DNA from: Spinactinospora alkalitolerans
GTDB lineage: Bacteria > Actinomycetota > Actinomycetes > Streptosporangiales > Streptosporangiaceae
Length of the DNA: 64,000 nt
Assembly: GCF_013408795.1 (NCBI RefSeq)
Contig: NZ_JACCCC010000001.1
Location: 6,572,001-6,636,000 of the forward strand
Reading direction: 5' to 3'
Shown: piece by piece, positions 35,241-58,565 of the stretch
Layout: each line of letters begins with the position of its first letter
Position numbering within the stretch: the stretch's first letter is position 1
Position numbers and translations under genes: made by a program
Notes under the pieces: model-generated
What the model was told of the DNA's origin: nothing
What the model saw: the letters and a program-made list of their open reading frames with translations, nothing else
The model's database searches: none

Positions 35241-35249
35241 GCGATCGTG

Positions 35250-35339
35250 CGGAGGGTGTGGGATTTGAACCCACGAGGTCGGGGCTACCGACCTAGCGCT
35301 TTTCAAGAGCGCCGCACTCGGCCGCTATGCGAACCCTCC
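35250..35339 (-). tRNA. tRNA-Ser(UGA)
   Basis: Intact 90-nt class II tRNA. Acceptor GGAGGGT pairs ACCCTCC, discriminator G, T arm GTGGG-TTCAAAT-CCCAC, long variable arm around GGTCGGTAGCCCCGACC, and anticodon loop CTTGAAA (anticodon TGA at 35305-35303). No CCA is encoded. It lies inside the island, opposite in strand to the split tRNA-Ser, and could replace the function of the interrupted gene. Confidence 0.93.
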
Positions 35340-35493: not shown

Positions 35494-36231
35494 GTGAACG
35501 AGGTTCTACGCCAGGCACTGGCCGCCGCACGCCTGACTGACACCGAAGCCGCGGCCCGCCTGGGCGTGGACCCCAAGACCGTCCGCCGCTGGATCACCGG
35601 CCAGAAGCCCTATCCCCGCCACCGCTGGGCCATCGCCGATCTCGTCGGAGTCCCAGAGGGCAAGCTCTGGCCCGAGACCGAGGCCAAGAAAGCCGAAGTG
35701 CCCCCGGCAACCGCGACAGGGACACAGCGCGTCTACCCACACCGCTGGACCGTCCCGCACGAAGTATGGCGCGAGCTCTTCGAGTCTGCCGAGGAGGAGA
35801 TCGGCGTACTTGTCTACAGCGGCCTTTTCCTAGCAGACGACACAGGAATCCTGCGCCTCTTCGAACGCAAAGCACGCGCCGGAGTCAAAGTGCGCATCCT
35901 CCTCGGCGACCCGGACAGCCCACACGTCCGGCAATGGGGAGAGGAAGAGGTTATCGGCGACGCCATGCCGGCCAAAGTCCGCAACGCCCTCGTGCTCTAC
36001 CGTCCGTTGCTCGGCGTCGAGGGCATCGATCTCCGGCTACACCAAACGGTCCTGTACAACTCGATCTACCGCGCCGATGACCAATTGCTCATCAACCAAC
36101 ACGTCTACGGCGCCCCGGCATCGACCACCCCGGTCTTCCACATCGACGGCCGAGCGAGCCGCGACATGGCAGCAACCTACCTGCAAAGCTTCGAACGCAC
36201 CTGGAAAGTGGCCAATGACAGTAGTGGCTAG
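35494..36231 (+). CDS. XRE-type HTH protein with C-terminal PLD-like (DUF5919-like) domain
   Basis: A 245-residue protein: N-terminal HTH (LTDTEAAARLGVDPKTVRRWI, residues 14-34), a linker, then a domain beginning WRELFESAEEEIGVLVYSGLF with FERKARAGVKVRILLGDPDS, reminiscent of DUF5919/phospholipase-D-like folds, though no HKD catalytic motif is seen. GTG 35494 has GGAGG 8 bases upstream. A truncated paralogue lies across the tRNA on the other strand. Such genes are often linked to NUDIX genes; a role in gene control is inferred from the HTH. Confidence 0.8.
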   Translation: MNEVLRQALAAARLTDTEAAARLGVDPKTVRRWITGQKPYPRHRWAIADLVGVPEGKLWPETEAKKAEVPPATATGTQRVYPHRWTVPHEVWRELFESAEEEIGVLVYSGLFLADDTGILRLFERKARAGVKVRILLGDPDSPHVRQWGEEEVIGDAMPAKVRNALVLYRPLLGVEGIDLRLHQTVLYNSIYRADDQLLINQHVYGAPASTTPVFHIDGRASRDMAATYLQSFERTWKVANDSSG

Positions 36232-36282
36232 GTCAGCACTGCCGAGCTGGAATTGTGAGAAGAGATGAAACAAACGTGATCT

Positions 36283-37167
36283 CTACCTCTTGTTGCGGAA
36301 ATATGATTCGGTGTCAATATCTATTCCTGCGGCCTTGAGCTCTCCCATCAGCTCGAGCTTCCATGCCCCCTTCGCGTCAAGCTCGGTGTAAGCAATCCCG
36401 TATGCATCACTAGGAAGCTCAACGCCGTCCTGATAGAGAACGGCAACATTCTCCCTCCCGAGAGATGCAAAAGCGAAGCCAAGTTCGAATATTACGTTTT
36501 GTCGTGCACGCAAATTAAAGTCATCAGTGCTTTTCAGGCGGCCTTCGTCGTCGCCTGTAGCGATGACAATTGCGTAAGAAGACTTCTTCATGTGTGTAGA
36601 AAACTTTTCAATAATAGTCTGCCCCTTATTTGGCATCTCTGATAGGGTGACAACTTGCGCTGAAGTGATTTCGGAAACGAATCTGTGAACAGTCTCTCGT
36701 GAAGAGGTGTCACGCCCATGGATCAAAAATATAGTGGACTTTTCTGGGGACTCTTCCCTCGTATTTGGTTCGTTGTCATTGTCGGCGTTACTAGTTGATT
36801 CAGTCGGGACCTCTTCTTCGTAAAGAGAGAGTGAGGACAGGATGGACTCAAGCCGCCTCTTCTTCTCGTCTGCATTATGTAGAAGAAGCGCCATGTTCTC
36901 ATCGTCAAGAGATTCAAGTGTGTCCAACTTAATGTCTTGAAGAGTTGAGTATTCAGACCTAGGGCTGGATTCAAAGAGTGAGACAGAGGTGAAAGCGCGA
37001 TCCAAGAGGCGTTTATTGAATTCATCCCAAGTTCTATATGCTGCTAGGAAAGTTTCTCGCTCGGCCTTGCTTGTGTGAGGAGAGTAGCGCCAATTTGAAT
37101 ATCGATCAATAGAATCTTGAATCTCCCGGTGTACATCGTCTCGCGACATTCGAAGCTTAGCTGGCAT
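36283..37167 (-). CDS. TIR-like (CAP12/Pycsar-type) nucleotide-binding defence effector
   Basis: A 294-residue protein, AT-rich and unlike its surroundings. Residues 1-145 are helical and charged (RDDVHREIQDSIDRYSNWRY; EEEVPTESTSNADNDNEPN linker). Residues 147-290 match the predicted nucleotide-binding TIR-like domain (PF10137 type): IFLIHGRD, VTLSEMPNKGQTIIEKF, AIVIATGDDEGR, RARQNVIFELGFAFASLGR and YGIAYTELDAKGAWKLELM. The glutamate in FELG is the likely NAD-cleaving residue in the family. ATG 37167 has GGAG 6 bases upstream. It follows the membrane-protein gene by 18 bases. Probable abortive-infection effector. Confidence 0.85.
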   Translation of the reverse strand: MPAKLRMSRDDVHREIQDSIDRYSNWRYSPHTSKAERETFLAAYRTWDEFNKRLLDRAFTSVSLFESSPRSEYSTLQDIKLDTLESLDDENMALLLHNADEKKRRLESILSSLSLYEEEVPTESTSNADNDNEPNTREESPEKSTIFLIHGRDTSSRETVHRFVSEITSAQVVTLSEMPNKGQTIIEKFSTHMKKSSYAIVIATGDDEGRLKSTDDFNLRARQNVIFELGFAFASLGRENVAVLYQDGVELPSDAYGIAYTELDAKGAWKLELMGELKAAGIDIDTESYFRNKR

Positions 37168-37185
37168 TTGAATCTCCAAAATCAG

Positions 37186-37740
37186 TTAGTGTTTAAGCCA
37201 GGGAGGGGTCCAGCCGTAGGACTCCGAGAGGTCTTCAATGGAGTCCTGGATGTTGCCGAGATCCGATCCAGAGTAAAGATCTTTTATTCGAGAAGCTAGA
37301 ACGTCGTTTACTGTTAAATCAGTATCGGGATTGCCGATATCCCTCCTTGCCTCGAGCACGAAGTCAGAGAACAACCTAAGTAGTATAGTCGGGGGTGCCG
37401 AATTGAAGCTCGCCTGCATGAAATTATTGAAGCTTCTAACTGCGCCGTCCGAGCCGTAGATGGTGATCCAGGTTCTAAAGTCCAATATTTTCTTGTTTAC
37501 CTCTTTAAGGTCCAGGTTTTCTCTTCCGTCCTTGTCTAACATCCTTCCAAATACATCAATAGCGGGCTTGTATGTATCATATTTTTTCTCTGAGATCCTA
37601 GACTCAAGATCACGAACCCTGCCTGCTTCTAATTCTTTAGTTTTTGTGGTCCGAGCGGAAAGCGCTGCGATTATAGCGGAGACCACGGCAGCTAAAGCCG
37701 CTGCAGCAGCGACGGTAAGAGTTACCCATACTGGCGTCAT
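37186..37740 (-). CDS. Membrane-anchored protein paired with the TIR effector
   Basis: A 184-residue protein of unknown family. One N-terminal membrane helix (VWVTLTVAAAAALAAVVSAI, residues 4-28) is followed by a short coiled-coil-like stretch (TKTKELEAGRVRDLESRISE) and a soluble domain with LRLFSDFVLEARRDIGNPD. No cyclic-nucleotide or enzyme motif is recognised. It is the first gene of a two-gene operon with the TIR protein and shares its low GC (a 60-base line counts 42% G+C). By position it may sense infection at the membrane or anchor the effector. Confidence 0.72.
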   Translation of the reverse strand: MTPVWVTLTVAAAAALAAVVSAIIAALSARTTKTKELEAGRVRDLESRISEKKYDTYKPAIDVFGRMLDKDGRENLDLKEVNKKILDFRTWITIYGSDGAVRSFNNFMQASFNSAPPTILLRLFSDFVLEARRDIGNPDTDLTVNDVLASRIKDLYSGSDLGNIQDSIEDLSESYGWTPPWLKH

Positions 37741-37793
37741 GTGCGTTTTCTTTGCCGAATCTGGCTATATGAGATCAAGGCGCCGGCGTGCTC

Positions 37794-37846
37794 CCGGCCG
37801 GGTGCTCGGGCTGCGGGCTGACGCCCGGTCCCGAGCACCCGGCCGG
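37794..37846. repeat. Long inverted repeat upstream of the defence pair
   Basis: Perfect 16-bp arms (37794-37809 and 37831-37846, CCGGCCGGGTGCTCGG and its complement) with a 21-base loop, starting about 50 bp upstream of the membrane-protein gene. GC-rich, in contrast with the AT-rich genes beside it. Could be a terminator for incoming transcription or a structured RNA. Confidence 0.55.
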
Positions 37847-37977
37847 AGGCACGTGGGGCAGGCCGGTGCCGGAGGAATCCCATCACGGTGTGATTCGCTC
37901 CAGCATCGCCAAAATTGACGTTTCCGGCAGGCGATCCGTTGGCCGCATCAGGCCATGGTTGCCGGCGTCCTCAGGTC

Positions 37978-38043
37978 CCGAGGCACTCGGTCGCGCGGCC
38001 CTGACTGTCTGTGCTCAGGCGCCGGCGCGACCGAGCACCTCGG
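37978..38043. repeat. Second long inverted repeat in the same non-coding block
   Basis: Arms of 19 bases (37978-37996 and 38025-38043) nearly complementary, with CTCGGTCGCGC and GCGCGACCGAG perfectly paired. The block 37741-38261 has no gene I can support. Confidence 0.5.
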
Positions 38044-54820: not shown

Positions 54821-55276
54821 ATGACACTCGACAACGCCGAAACGGTGAAATCCGGCCTGCTCGCCTCCGTGCCGTTCACGCGCACACTCGGACTGGAGTT
54901 CGTGGACCTGGACGAGGGCCGCGCCGTCATGCGGCTGCCGGACGACGCCGACCACCACAACCACGTCGGCGGCCCGCACGCCGGAGCGATGTTCACGCTC
55001 GCCGAATCGGCCTCGGGCGCGATCGTGCTCGCCTCCTTCGGCGACCAGCTCGACCGCGCCGTGCCGCTGGTGCTGCGCGCCGAGATCCACTACCGCAGAC
55101 TCGCCATGGGGCCCGTGCTCGCCGAGGCCCGGCTGGGCCGCGCCAAGGAGGAGGTCGTGGCCGAGCTCGACGCCGGCACCCGCCCCGAGCTCCCGGTCGA
55201 AATCGAACTGCGCACCGAGGACGGGACGGTCACCGGCACGATGACCGTGGTCTGGACCCTGCGCGCCAACGCCTGA
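54821..55276 (+). CDS. DUF4442/PaaI-like hotdog thioesterase
   Basis: A 151-residue hotdog-fold protein: VPFTRTLGLEFVDLDEGRAV at the start, HNHVGGPHAGAMFTLAESAS at the catalytic helix region near residue 47 and RRLAMGPVLAEARLGRAKEE near residue 97. It probably hydrolyses acyl-CoA. The ATG at 54821 has no strong ribosome site nearby. Confidence 0.85.
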   Translation: MTLDNAETVKSGLLASVPFTRTLGLEFVDLDEGRAVMRLPDDADHHNHVGGPHAGAMFTLAESASGAIVLASFGDQLDRAVPLVLRAEIHYRRLAMGPVLAEARLGRAKEEVVAELDAGTRPELPVEIELRTEDGTVTGTMTVVWTLRANA

Positions 55277-55715: not shown

Positions 55716-56861
55716 GTGAAGTTCCGAGTTGACCGCGACGCGTTCGCCGACGCCGTGGCGTGGACCGCCCGTGCGCTGCCCGCGCGCCCCGCGGTGCCGG
55801 TGCTCGCGGGCATGCGCCTGGACATCCCCGACGCGGCCTCGGGCCGGCTGCGGCTGTCCAGCTTCGACTACGAGGTCTCCGCGCGCGCGGCCGTCGACGT
55901 CGACGTCGACGAGCCCGGCGGCGTCCTGGTGTCGGGGCGGCTGCTCGCCGAGATCGCGCGCAACCTCCCGCCGCAGCCGGTGGAGGTGGCCTGCGACGGC
56001 TCTCGGGTGCTCGTCACCTGCGGCGGCGCGCGGTTCACGCTGCTCACCCTGCCGCTGGAGGACTACCCGACCCTGCCCGACATGCCCAAGGTCGCCGGCT
56101 CGCTCCCCGGCGACGTCTTCGCGGCGGCGGTGCGCCAGGTGGCGCCGGCCGCCAGCCGCGACGACACGCTGCCCATGCTCACCGGCGTGCACCTGGCCTT
56201 CTCCGGCGAGACGCTGACGCTGGCCGCCACCGACCGCTACCGGGTGGCCGTCCGCGAACTGTGGTGGCGCTCGGAGCTGCCCGACATCACCGCCTCGGCG
56301 CTGGTCCCCGCGCGCACGCTGGCCGACACCGCGCGCTCCCTGCTGCCGGGCGGCAACGTCGACATCGCGCTGTCCACGGTCGGCGCCGGATCCTCCCAGG
56401 GCGAGGGGATGATCGGCTTCGAGCACGGCGGCAGGCGCACCACGACCCGGCTCATCGACAGCGAGTTCATCAAGTACGAGTCCCGGTTCCCCGACGAGTT
56501 CGCCGCACGCGCCCAGGTCGCCACGGCCCCGCTGATCGAGGCGGCGAAGCGGGTCGCGCTGGTGGCCGACCGCAGCACCCCGCTGCGGCTCTCCTTCTCC
56601 CGGGGCGAGGTCGTCCTGGAGGCCGGCTCCGGCGACGACGCCCAGGCGCGCGAGGTCCTGGAGGCCGGGTACGAGGGCGAGGAGATCAGGGTCGCGTTCG
56701 GTCCGCAGTACCTCCTCGACGGCCTCACCGCGGTCGAGACCGACACCGTGCACCTGAACTTCACCACGCCCACCAAGCCGGCCGTGATCTCCGGCGCCCC
56801 CGAGGAGGAGGGCGGCCGGCCCGATTTCCGCTACCTGGTGATGCCGCTGCGGGTGTCGTAG
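55716..56861 (+). CDS. DNA polymerase III beta subunit (sliding clamp) paralogue
   Basis: A 381-residue DnaN-like clamp with three successive homologous domains: LPARPAVPVLAGMRLDI near residue 22, FTLLTLPLEDYPTLPDMPKV near residue 107, SRDDTLPMLTGVHLAFSG near residue 147, ATDRYRVAVREL near residue 171, and a C-terminal FRYLVMPLRVS resembling the clamp's terminal hydrophobic motif. The setting lacks dnaA, recF and gyrB, so this is probably a second clamp and not the replication-origin gene. GTG 55716 has GGAGG upstream. May serve repair or lesion bypass. Confidence 0.88.
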   Translation: MKFRVDRDAFADAVAWTARALPARPAVPVLAGMRLDIPDAASGRLRLSSFDYEVSARAAVDVDVDEPGGVLVSGRLLAEIARNLPPQPVEVACDGSRVLVTCGGARFTLLTLPLEDYPTLPDMPKVAGSLPGDVFAAAVRQVAPAASRDDTLPMLTGVHLAFSGETLTLAATDRYRVAVRELWWRSELPDITASALVPARTLADTARSLLPGGNVDIALSTVGAGSSQGEGMIGFEHGGRRTTTRLIDSEFIKYESRFPDEFAARAQVATAPLIEAAKRVALVADRSTPLRLSFSRGEVVLEAGSGDDAQAREVLEAGYEGEEIRVAFGPQYLLDGLTAVETDTVHLNFTTPTKPAVISGAPEEEGGRPDFRYLVMPLRVS

Positions 56862-56868
56862 CGGCAGG

Positions 56869-57294
56869 TCAGTCGGGGCAGCCCTCGTTGCTCTCGATCT
56901 CGGCGTCGTCCCTGGGGCACAGTTCGTAGTACAGCGTGCGGCGGCGCACGAGGCGGTGCGACAGCGGGACCGCCCATCCCTGCAGGACGGGGTGCCTGCG
57001 GCTCAGCATCCGCGCGGCGCGCTGTGCCTCCCCGCCCTCCAGCGGCTTGACCCCGCCGCGGACGGGCAACCCGTTGGGGTCGCCGCGGAACGTGCAGGGA
57101 CGCAGGTCGGCGACGGGGTGCCGGCGCAGCCGTTCGGCCTCGCCGGAGTCCTCCCACGCGCGGAACAGCACGCGGTCGCCGTCCACCGCGATCCGCACCG
57201 GGGTGTCGACCGCGGTCATGCCGTCCTGGTGGTAGGTGGTCAGCAGCGCGGTCTTCTCGCGATGGAACGTTTTGAGGATCGTGGCCGCGGACAT
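56869..57294 (-). CDS. PPOX-class flavin/F420-dependent oxidoreductase
   Basis: A 141-residue split-barrel protein of the pyridoxamine-oxidase-like class: TALLTTYHQDGMTAVDTPVR, then DGDRVLFRAWEDSGEAERLR and RHPVADLRPCTFRGDPNG. The length and layout fit the small F420-dependent PPOX proteins of actinomycetes. ATG 57294 with GGGAGG upstream. It converges on the sliding-clamp gene with 7 bases between stops. Confidence 0.87.
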   Translation of the reverse strand: MSAATILKTFHREKTALLTTYHQDGMTAVDTPVRIAVDGDRVLFRAWEDSGEAERLRRHPVADLRPCTFRGDPNGLPVRGGVKPLEGGEAQRAARMLSRRHPVLQGWAVPLSHRLVRRRTLYYELCPRDDAEIESNEGCPD

Positions 57295-57501
57295 CCTCGT
57301 CCTCCCTGTAGTGGGGTTGCTACGGCCTACCTTCCCCGTTTCCGTGACCTGAGTCACTTCTTTCGCGCCGGAAAGCGGCCGCGCGCCCACGGGTGCCCGT
57401 GGAGAGGGAGGAGGCGGCCATCGCGGGTGGAATTCGGGCCGCCGGTGCCAGGAGCGTGCCACCCGCACGAACCATGGCCGCATCCGGCCAAACCGGCCGG
57501 T

Positions 57502-57586
57502 TTATCCACAGGCGTATGTGACCGCTGCTAGTTATCCCCAACTATCCACAGGGTTATCCACAGCCTTTTTCCGTGGCTGTGCATAA
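57502..57586. other. Cluster of DnaA-box-like sites
   Basis: TTATCCACA at 57502-57510 and 57554-57562, near matches TTATCCCCA at 57532-57540 and CTATCCACA at 57542-57550, and TTATGCACA on the minus strand at 57578-57586. Five sites lie in 85 bp of a 347-bp gene-free stretch (57295-57641). A CACAGCC/GGCTGTG stem overlaps the last two. Possible DnaA titration or regulatory site. Confidence 0.6.
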
Positions 57587-57641: not shown

Positions 57642-58565
57642 CTACTCCCCGTCCGAGATCGAGGACGACGCCCCTCGGCCGACCGCCGTCTCCATGCCCA
57701 GCTCGGCGCGGCGTCCGCGCAGGTACCCGGCGCGGTAGCCGGCCCGGTGGTGGGTGCGCTCCGGGCGCGTGGGGCGCAACTGCGGGAACCGGCGCTGGAA
57801 GTCCTCCTGGACCCGGTCGACGTCCTCGCGCAGCACGAGTTCGGCGCCGCTCTTGGCCGCGTCGGAACCGGTGCCGCCCGCGCCGCCCTTGGCGCCGGCG
57901 GCATCGCCGTCCGGGGAGTCGTCGGCCAGGCGGGCCCGGAACTCCCGGATGCGCTCGGCCACCGCGTAGCCGTAGGCGCGCACGAACGACCGGTAGAACC
58001 GGCTGCGCTCGGTGGCCAGGGTCGACCGGTCGTAGTTGCGCAGCTCCCGCAGTCCCGCGACGTGCTCGCGCGCCGAGAAGCGCGCCGAAGCCTCCATCTG
58101 CATGGTGATCGAGGGCAGCAGCACCCGGAGGGAGTCCAGCGCGGTGACGGTGCCGACGATGATGAGCATGCGGTCGGTGTTGGCCGAGGTGTTGCCGCGC
58201 ACCGCCGACTGGCAGCCGTAGGCCGAGGCGATCGCGGCGAGCGCCTTGACCCGTGCCTTGCCGTGCCCGCCCACGCCGGACACGGGGAAGTCGAGCCGGG
58301 TCACCGACTCGGCCGCCTCGCCGCGCTGCGCGCGCGCCTCGGCCTCGGCGATCGCGTGCCGGGTCATCAGCTCCGCGGCCTTGGCGGTGAAGGCCTGGCT
58401 CTCGGCGTCGGTGACCGACGGGTCCTCGGCCATGCGGAGCAGGCCGCGGACCCGCTCGATCATCTTCTGCCGGGCCTCGGTGCCCTGTCTGGACGTCTCT
58501 CGCGGGTCACCGGAACGGGCGCCGTCCCCGTGCGGTCGCCTGCCGGAGTCAGTCCCCATCGACAC
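57642..58565 (-). CDS. DUF2786 domain protein
   Basis: A 307-residue soluble protein. The DUF2786 part is at residues 33-75 (KMIERVRGLLRMAEDPSVTD, AESQAFTAKAAELMTRHAIA). The middle region continues with FPVSGVGGHGKARVKALAAI and a YGCQSAVRGN segment; a Gly/Ala-rich linker near residue 215 precedes a basic C-terminal helix. Function unknown. Start GTG 58565 or ATG 58559. Confidence 0.87.
   Translation of the reverse strand: MSMGTDSGRRPHGDGARSGDPRETSRQGTEARQKMIERVRGLLRMAEDPSVTDAESQAFTAKAAELMTRHAIAEAEARAQRGEAAESVTRLDFPVSGVGGHGKARVKALAAIASAYGCQSAVRGNTSANTDRMLIIVGTVTALDSLRVLLPSITMQMEASARFSAREHVAGLRELRNYDRSTLATERSRFYRSFVRAYGYAVAERIREFRARLADDSPDGDAAGAKGGAGGTGSDAAKSGAELVLREDVDRVQEDFQRRFPQLRPTRPERTHHRAGYRAGYLRGRRAELGMETAVGRGASSSISDGE

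Follow-up and report, generated by a model that had tools for sequence, protein, structure and literature searches.

An origin-proximal cluster of putative DnaA boxes near a second sliding-clamp gene in Spinactinospora alkalitolerans and other Nocardiopsaceae

The limits placed on replication initiation in actinobacteria are, to our knowledge, poorly understood. Clusters of DnaA boxes close to oriC were reportedly described in Bacillus subtilis by Okumura et al. in 2012, and a DnaA-box cluster of Streptomyces coelicolor is said to have been reported by Smulczyk-Krawczyszyn et al. in 2006. Here we examine a 64-kb stretch of Spinactinospora alkalitolerans DNA (positions 6572001-6636000 of the single source contig of 6,684,050 bases; hereafter the window), in which 85 bp of non-coding sequence hold five putative DnaA boxes not far from dnaN2, a gene encoding a second beta sliding clamp. 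This 85-bp stretch is, in our estimation, likely to be an oriC-proximal DnaA-box cluster that would bind DnaA and restrain re-initiation.

The B. subtilis clusters resemble the present one in that their boxes lie outside oriC and in that several clusters occur per genome. They differ from it in that the boxes studied here have a helically phased spacing and, in some species, a palindrome before the first box; the present cluster is moreover known from its sequence. The S. coelicolor cluster is likewise actinobacterial, lies near oriC and is reported to repress untimely initiation. The Streptomyces consensus is TTGTCCACA whereas TTATCCACA is the box here, and the two clusters are likened irrespective of their gene contexts. 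Escherichia coli datA is also a group of DnaA boxes in an intergenic region close to oriC, and its dosage goes up after initiation (PMC5742627). datA is characterised by IHF-dependent hydrolysis of DnaA-bound ATP, and it is likened to the present cluster by sequence and place. According to reviews, the role of the DnaA-box clusters of B. subtilis and S. coelicolor is to repress untimely initiation (PMC5742627; PMC4585315; PMC10950094), and removal of all six B. subtilis clusters results in early initiation (PMC5295017; PMC13220808). Among the titles and abstract openings listed in literature searches, none dealt with a DnaA-box cluster of the Nocardiopsaceae or with this second clamp, which is not proof of absence.

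The box cluster and its distance from oriC

The cluster spans positions 57502-57586 of the window and comprises five 9-mers, each differing from TTATCCACA at no more than one position. Putative box 1, an exact TTATCCACA on the forward strand (57502-57510), serves as the anchor (position 0) for comparison between loci. It is followed on the same strand by a weak putative box, TTATCCCCA, at +30 (57532-57540), by CTATCCACA at +40 (57542-57550) and by a second exact TTATCCACA at +52 (57554-57562), and on the reverse strand by the inverted putative box TTATGCACA at +76 (57578-57586). The whole window holds six sites within this mismatch limit, five of them inside these 85 bp, and 100 shuffled controls contained a mean of 1.78 and a maximum of five such sites per 64 kb. 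Chance matches were consequently rejected as the source of the cluster, both on the basis of these shuffles and because 27 of 28 genomes have the cluster in the same interval between genes, through gene insertion and loss.

The DnaA AAA+ family profile has a single match in the source genome, at 6403862, and the main dnaN gene lies at 6405681. Since this only dnaA match and dnaN sit about 224 kb away, or 3% of the contig, the cluster is near the origin but distinct from oriC. Seventeen sites with at most one mismatch were found in 20 kb of the real dnaA-dnaN region. Fourteen of them lie at 6402319-6405340 (upstream of dnaA, inside dnaA and in the dnaA-dnaN gap), as expected for an origin, while two are located just beyond dnaN and one at 6399083. 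With regard to an AT-rich unwinding element, the peak A+T content over 30 bp is 0.57 at the cluster versus 0.60 in the dnaA-dnaN gap.

The original prediction, made from the window alone, of five box-like sites in 85 bp forming a non-random cluster outside oriC therefore holds. It named as a refutation a chromosome map putting the locus near the true oriC region; the map puts the locus near the origin but outside oriC. The same prediction had considered a remnant of a replicon. A relic or second origin, with dnaN2 left over from a duplication of the dnaA-oriC-dnaN locus, would explain why a clamp gene and boxes occur together as they do at oriC. This is nevertheless extremely improbable, as the genome has one dnaA match, about 225 kb off, and the boxes have no initiator gene of their own beside them. 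Furthermore, the boxes lie 3' of the clamp gene, the reverse of most origin boxes, which are found 5' of dnaN, and the element is common to several genera.

Conservation and spacing of the boxes in relatives

Loci matching most closely belong to Murinocardiopsis, Marinactinospora, Nocardiopsis, Thermobifida and one further actinomycete, which makes the source organism a Nocardiopsaceae-type actinomycete (G and L numbers below are our handles for genomes and loci). The GTDB family used for the genome search is broader than the Nocardiopsaceae, and 28 Nocardiopsaceae-type genomes were picked by their clamp. To qualify as a cluster, two or more sites with no more than one mismatch, one of them exact, had to lie within 100 bp. 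Such a cluster is present in the equivalent gene interval of 27 of the 28 genomes, i.e., the source genome, 19 loci that are mostly the best clamp matches (L107-L125), L011, L014-L016, Nocardiopsis halophila (L147), L175 and L176; the twenty-eighth genome is G062 (L140, L148). It is located 3' of dnaN2 or, in N. halophila, 3' of a gene encoding a DUF2786 protein. The DUF2786 gene, which in the window (57642-58559, reverse strand) has its 3' end towards the boxes, lies on the far side of the cluster in every cluster-bearing genome except G042, whose fetched stretch stops at a contig end. In seven other genomes that have dnaN2 and a match taken as the main dnaN on one contig, G062 included, the two are 60-256 kb apart.

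In the window, a gene encoding a PPOX-class F420-dependent oxidoreductase (56869-57294, reverse strand; TIGR03666 match) stands between dnaN2 and the cluster. Some species have insertions separating dnaN2 from the PPOX gene, others have them separating the cluster from the DUF2786 gene, and the cluster is retained. The boxes could alternatively constitute a DnaA-controlled promoter of the PPOX gene. They lie upstream of it in the window and in most relatives, with the start codon about 210 bp from box 1, and the palindrome ahead of box 1 described below resembles the site of a dimeric regulator. However, no PPOX gene was detected between dnaN2 and the DUF2786 gene in six of the 27 cluster-bearing genomes (L014, L015, L016, L124, L175 and L176). 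The cluster is retained in these six intervals, where it is flanked by convergent dnaN2 and DUF2786 genes, and because these genes converge no promoter is expected there. In addition, some 700-750 bp separate the cluster from the PPOX start in G042 and G007. Persistence of the cluster in the six intervals with no PPOX gene detected weakens the promoter explanation, which we regard as unlikely.

Box 1 is an exact TTATCCACA in 21 of the 24 loci compared and TTGTCCACA in the other three. Relative to it, same-strand boxes fall near +12, +22, +31, +41, +52 and +64, no single species having all of them. Sixteen of the 24 loci have a same-strand box either at +51 to +53 or at +63 to +65, and 11 have an inverted box at +25 to +96. 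The boxes are helically phased. The 61 same-strand pairs from the 24 loci give a mean cosine of 0.70 at 10.5 bp, compared with a mean of 0.055 (standard deviation 0.092, maximum 0.381) for 500 random placements; this figure does not amount to a significance level, because the loci are related by descent and the pairs of any one locus are interdependent. When periods from 9.5 to 12.5 bp were scanned, the concentration peaked at 10.25 bp (0.76) and 10.5 bp (0.75).

A 16-bp palindrome, TGGCCGCATCCGGCCA (57475-57490), begins 27 bp before box 1 in the window. The palindrome TGGCCGNATNCGGCCA is found exactly 27 bp ahead of box 1 with at most one mismatch in seven of 25 loci, and with three mismatches in one more. 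The source genome has three copies in total, the two besides that of the cluster sitting 1.7 kb apart near 850504. The palindrome may be a general regulator site, since G021 and G075 carry 15 and 10 copies elsewhere, respectively, and none at the cluster. Ten other palindrome loci had no gene common to more than three of them among the matches listed. By eye, the palindrome resembles the AdpA consensus TGGCSNGWWY: in some species one strand agrees with it completely, and both half-sites in the window have one mismatch.

Other box sites and the proposed role of the cluster

A genome-wide count of box clusters was suggested along with the original prediction. The source genome contains 18 exact copies of TTATCCACA, compared with four of a reversed control pattern, and exact same-strand pairs with 0-60 bp between them occur at two places only, this cluster and 6529214. 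With the contig taken as circular, all 18 exact boxes fall between 6.15 Mb and, across the contig end, 1.0 Mb. In G075, 12 of 15 exact boxes are gathered in one 0.3-Mb stretch containing the main dnaN, and in the cluster-less G062, 23 exact boxes are scattered along the contig. Exact same-strand pairs separated by 31-60 bp were found at the cluster locus in 12 of the 20 cluster-bearing genomes searched. Elsewhere in those 20 genomes such pairs occupy four places, namely two near dnaA (placed by distance to the main dnaN in G041 and by reading in G021), one at dnaB (G042) and one in G039. In 16 other genomes they occupy eight places, one of which is the gap between dnaB and a MATE gene in G030.

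The pair at 6529214 belongs to a second box cluster of the source genome (6529214-6529256; L104, 9214-9256), located in the gap between the convergent rhomboid and crgA genes. This second cluster was compared in eight loci, the source genome plus L154-L159 and L161, the seven non-source loci having been chosen for holding an exact close pair. It adjoins crgA in all eight, with a convergent rhomboid gene opposite in seven and a contig end in the eighth. Two exact boxes 33-35 bp apart are present in every case, and six loci also have a middle box departing from the exact sequence by one letter at most, L161 having two. Its location in a convergent gap also speaks against the boxes being a promoter of the PPOX gene.

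An inverted pair of exact boxes 102 bp apart was observed in the dnaB-MATE gap of the source genome (6365832-6365942; L102, 5832-5942). A pair of the same spacing and orientation, matched by pattern and not by gene context, exists in G021, G075, G071 and G029 and is missing from G062. An opposed exact pair 91 bp apart lies at dnaB in G042, and the dnaB-MATE gap of G030 also holds exact boxes. The source dnaB gene itself (L102, 3916-5673; about 6363916-6365673) has its DnaB_C match split in two by an insert that, read from the translation, is intein-like. Together, the phased array of 27 of the 28 genomes, the crgA array and the dnaB box pairs offer concrete sites for studying initiation control.

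The excess of sites over the shuffled controls, their retention in 27 of 28 genomes, the helical phasing, the presence of the crgA cluster in a convergent gap, the bunching of the 18 exact boxes of the source genome on the origin side and the published accounts of B. subtilis and S. coelicolor all argue for an oriC-proximal cluster that restrains re-initiation. The boxes would be occupied by several DnaA molecules lined up along one helical face, and their binding would probably be cooperative. Lying some 60-260 kb from oriC, the cluster would be copied soon after initiation, so that the number of strong DnaA sites would rise at once. These extra sites may draw DnaA off oriC, or may aid its conversion to the ADP form, and would in either case delay the next round; titration and datA-like inactivation look the same at the sequence level.

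Several observations weigh against such a role. G062 keeps the gene order of the locus with a box count of zero, the sole exception among the 28 genomes. Bunching around the origin is weaker in G021, where 16 of 26 exact boxes lie below 0.64 Mb and 10 of 26 lie more than 1 Mb from oriC. Several species have a single exact box accompanied by variants at the cluster, and in most species the cluster also lies upstream of the PPOX gene. The shared ancestry and interdependence behind the phasing figure count on the same side.

Box clusters can also act in the opposite direction. A DnaA-reactivating sequence (DARS) would promote nucleotide exchange on ADP-DnaA and thereby stimulate initiation. DARS elements are likewise chromosomal DnaA-box sites (PMC5742627), and the two kinds of element look alike in their letters. 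Tandem boxes near the origin, however, suit repressive clusters at least equally, and we hold a DARS-like function to be decidedly unlikely. Restraint of re-initiation is thus retained as the likeliest role of the cluster, and to that extent the link to replication control contained in the original prediction stands, while the part of it that relied on the proximity of the clamp found no support in N. halophila and Thermobifida fusca, as detailed below.

The second clamp and neighbouring features

The gene dnaN2 (55716-56861, forward strand) encodes a protein of 381 amino acids with three beta-clamp Pfam domains, all beyond the curated cut-off, and a TIGR00663 match that is also above cut-off. 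The arrangement first described for the locus, a full-length second clamp followed by one small gene and then by intergenic boxes, was recovered at its coordinates. Comparison with the main dnaN, also proposed at the outset, shows the latter to be a distinct gene (6405681) whose product is 64% identical to the window clamp. A third clamp-like gene of the source genome (5702200-5703354; L105) is diverged, being 37% identical to the window clamp and forming a long tree branch.

At least two clamp matches were found in 75 of 80 genomes of the GTDB family, one in four and none in one, fragments being counted. A class-wide sample of 110 genomes outside the family gave one match in 89, at least two in 19 (some weak or in pieces) and none in two. 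In a clamp tree computed without the long-branched L140 and L105, DnaN2 (25 rows) and 18 second clamps from other genera split from 23 main clamps and that of E. coli with support of 97/98. In another tree, L140 falls inside the Nocardiopsaceae clade next to L125, both being long-branched. A rough Nei-Gojobori estimate of the ratio of nonsynonymous to synonymous substitutions (dN/dS), based on one pair each, is 0.27 for dnaN2 versus 0.09 for dnaN1, and dnaN2 is therefore under constraint. It is probably an ancient paralogous clamp, separate from the cluster.

The positions of the hydrophobic partner cleft, which we take to be E. coli L177, V247, M362 and others, give a mixed picture. At position 247, leucine is found in all 21 main clamps, arginine in 21 and tryptophan in four of the 25 DnaN2 sequences, and arginine in 17 and histidine in one of the 18 second clamps from other genera. 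Position 177 is leucine in all 21 main clamps, isoleucine, valine or phenylalanine in 24 of 25 DnaN2 sequences, and isoleucine in 17 of the 18 other second clamps. M362 is kept in 20 of the 25 DnaN2 sequences, with glutamine in four and a gap in one, and L155 and T172 are kept in all 25. The interface positions looked at are mostly alike in DnaN2 and the main clamp. The pocket of DnaN2 is unlike the main clamp's, a difference that could be relevant to antibiotics aimed at clamps, and the cleft change common to the DnaN2 clade poses the separate question of which partners are served.

GriR and MypR are also second DnaN proteins of actinomycetes (PMC10817943). Theirs are encoded in antibiotic gene clusters, whereas the dnaN2 clade is found throughout the GTDB family. 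Should dnaN2 confer self-resistance to an antibiotic that binds clamps, as griR and mypR do, it would join second dnaN genes of that kind in actinomycetes, and its cleft changes could block such drugs. We consider this highly improbable, given the number of family genomes with at least two clamp matches and given that the seven neighbour proteins scanned around dnaN2, three of which were matchless, included no match to a peptide-synthetase or transposase family and no gene of an antibiotic gene cluster.

The distance from dnaN2 to the cluster is no more than about 6 kb in 26 of the 27 cluster-bearing genomes. This proximity, together with the conserved alteration of the DnaN2 cleft, would fit a module in which dnaN2 and the cluster act jointly, e.g., in a clamp-dependent inactivation of DnaA such as that by Hda-clamp or YabA-DnaN. 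An exact pair about 7.6 kb from the second clamp of G030 would fit as well, although it proved to be the dnaB-MATE site. Against joint action, the dnaN2 gene of N. halophila adjoins rpmB (ribosomal protein L28) on a different contig from the cluster, the separation being that of the assembly, and no box was found in the 1.7 kb up to the contig end. The DUF2786 gene, the cluster and the PPOX gene have stayed together in this species (L147), with the usual spacing (0/+64, inverted +87). L019, with dnaN2 and no boxes, was accordingly dropped as a counter-example to the conservation of the cluster, as L147 is from the same genome. The clamp gene and the cluster of Thermobifida fusca are 5.7 kb apart. 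Moreover, no cluster was found at 18 loci of same-clade second clamps from other genera (L127-L139, L141-L144 and L146; stretches of about 4 kb on the upstream side and as much as 8 kb on the downstream side), L126 and L145 having been excluded as main clamps flanking dnaA. At L143, two copies of TTGTCCACA lie 56 bp apart about 3.8 kb upstream of the clamp and were not counted since neither is exact.

The clade of the clamp extends beyond the range of the cluster, so that a common origin is not required for the two, which also speaks against a relic origin. Since the N. halophila cluster kept its other neighbours while dnaN2 lies elsewhere, the clamp probably does not belong to the cluster's function, and we find a clamp-coupled module very unlikely. 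The same low standing applies to its more specific form, an origin-proximal module of the Nocardiopsaceae in which an arginine-pocket DnaN2, of a kind retained across an entire actinobacterial family, and a DnaA-binding array would jointly switch DnaA off after initiation in a manner unlike Hda or YabA.

Upstream of dnaN2, the window contains a DUF4442 or hotdog-type thioesterase-like gene (54821-55276, forward strand; family matches). Further away, positions 36001-38000 have a G+C content of 51%, compared with 67-75% in the rest of the window, and adjoin a tRNA-Ser gene (35249-35339). An open reading frame in this stretch (36283-37179, reverse strand) matches the CAP12/Pycsar TIR effector family (Pfam PF10137; PADLOC PDC-S35). 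Because the low-G+C stretch beside the tRNA gene holds this effector match, it is possibly a small defence island.
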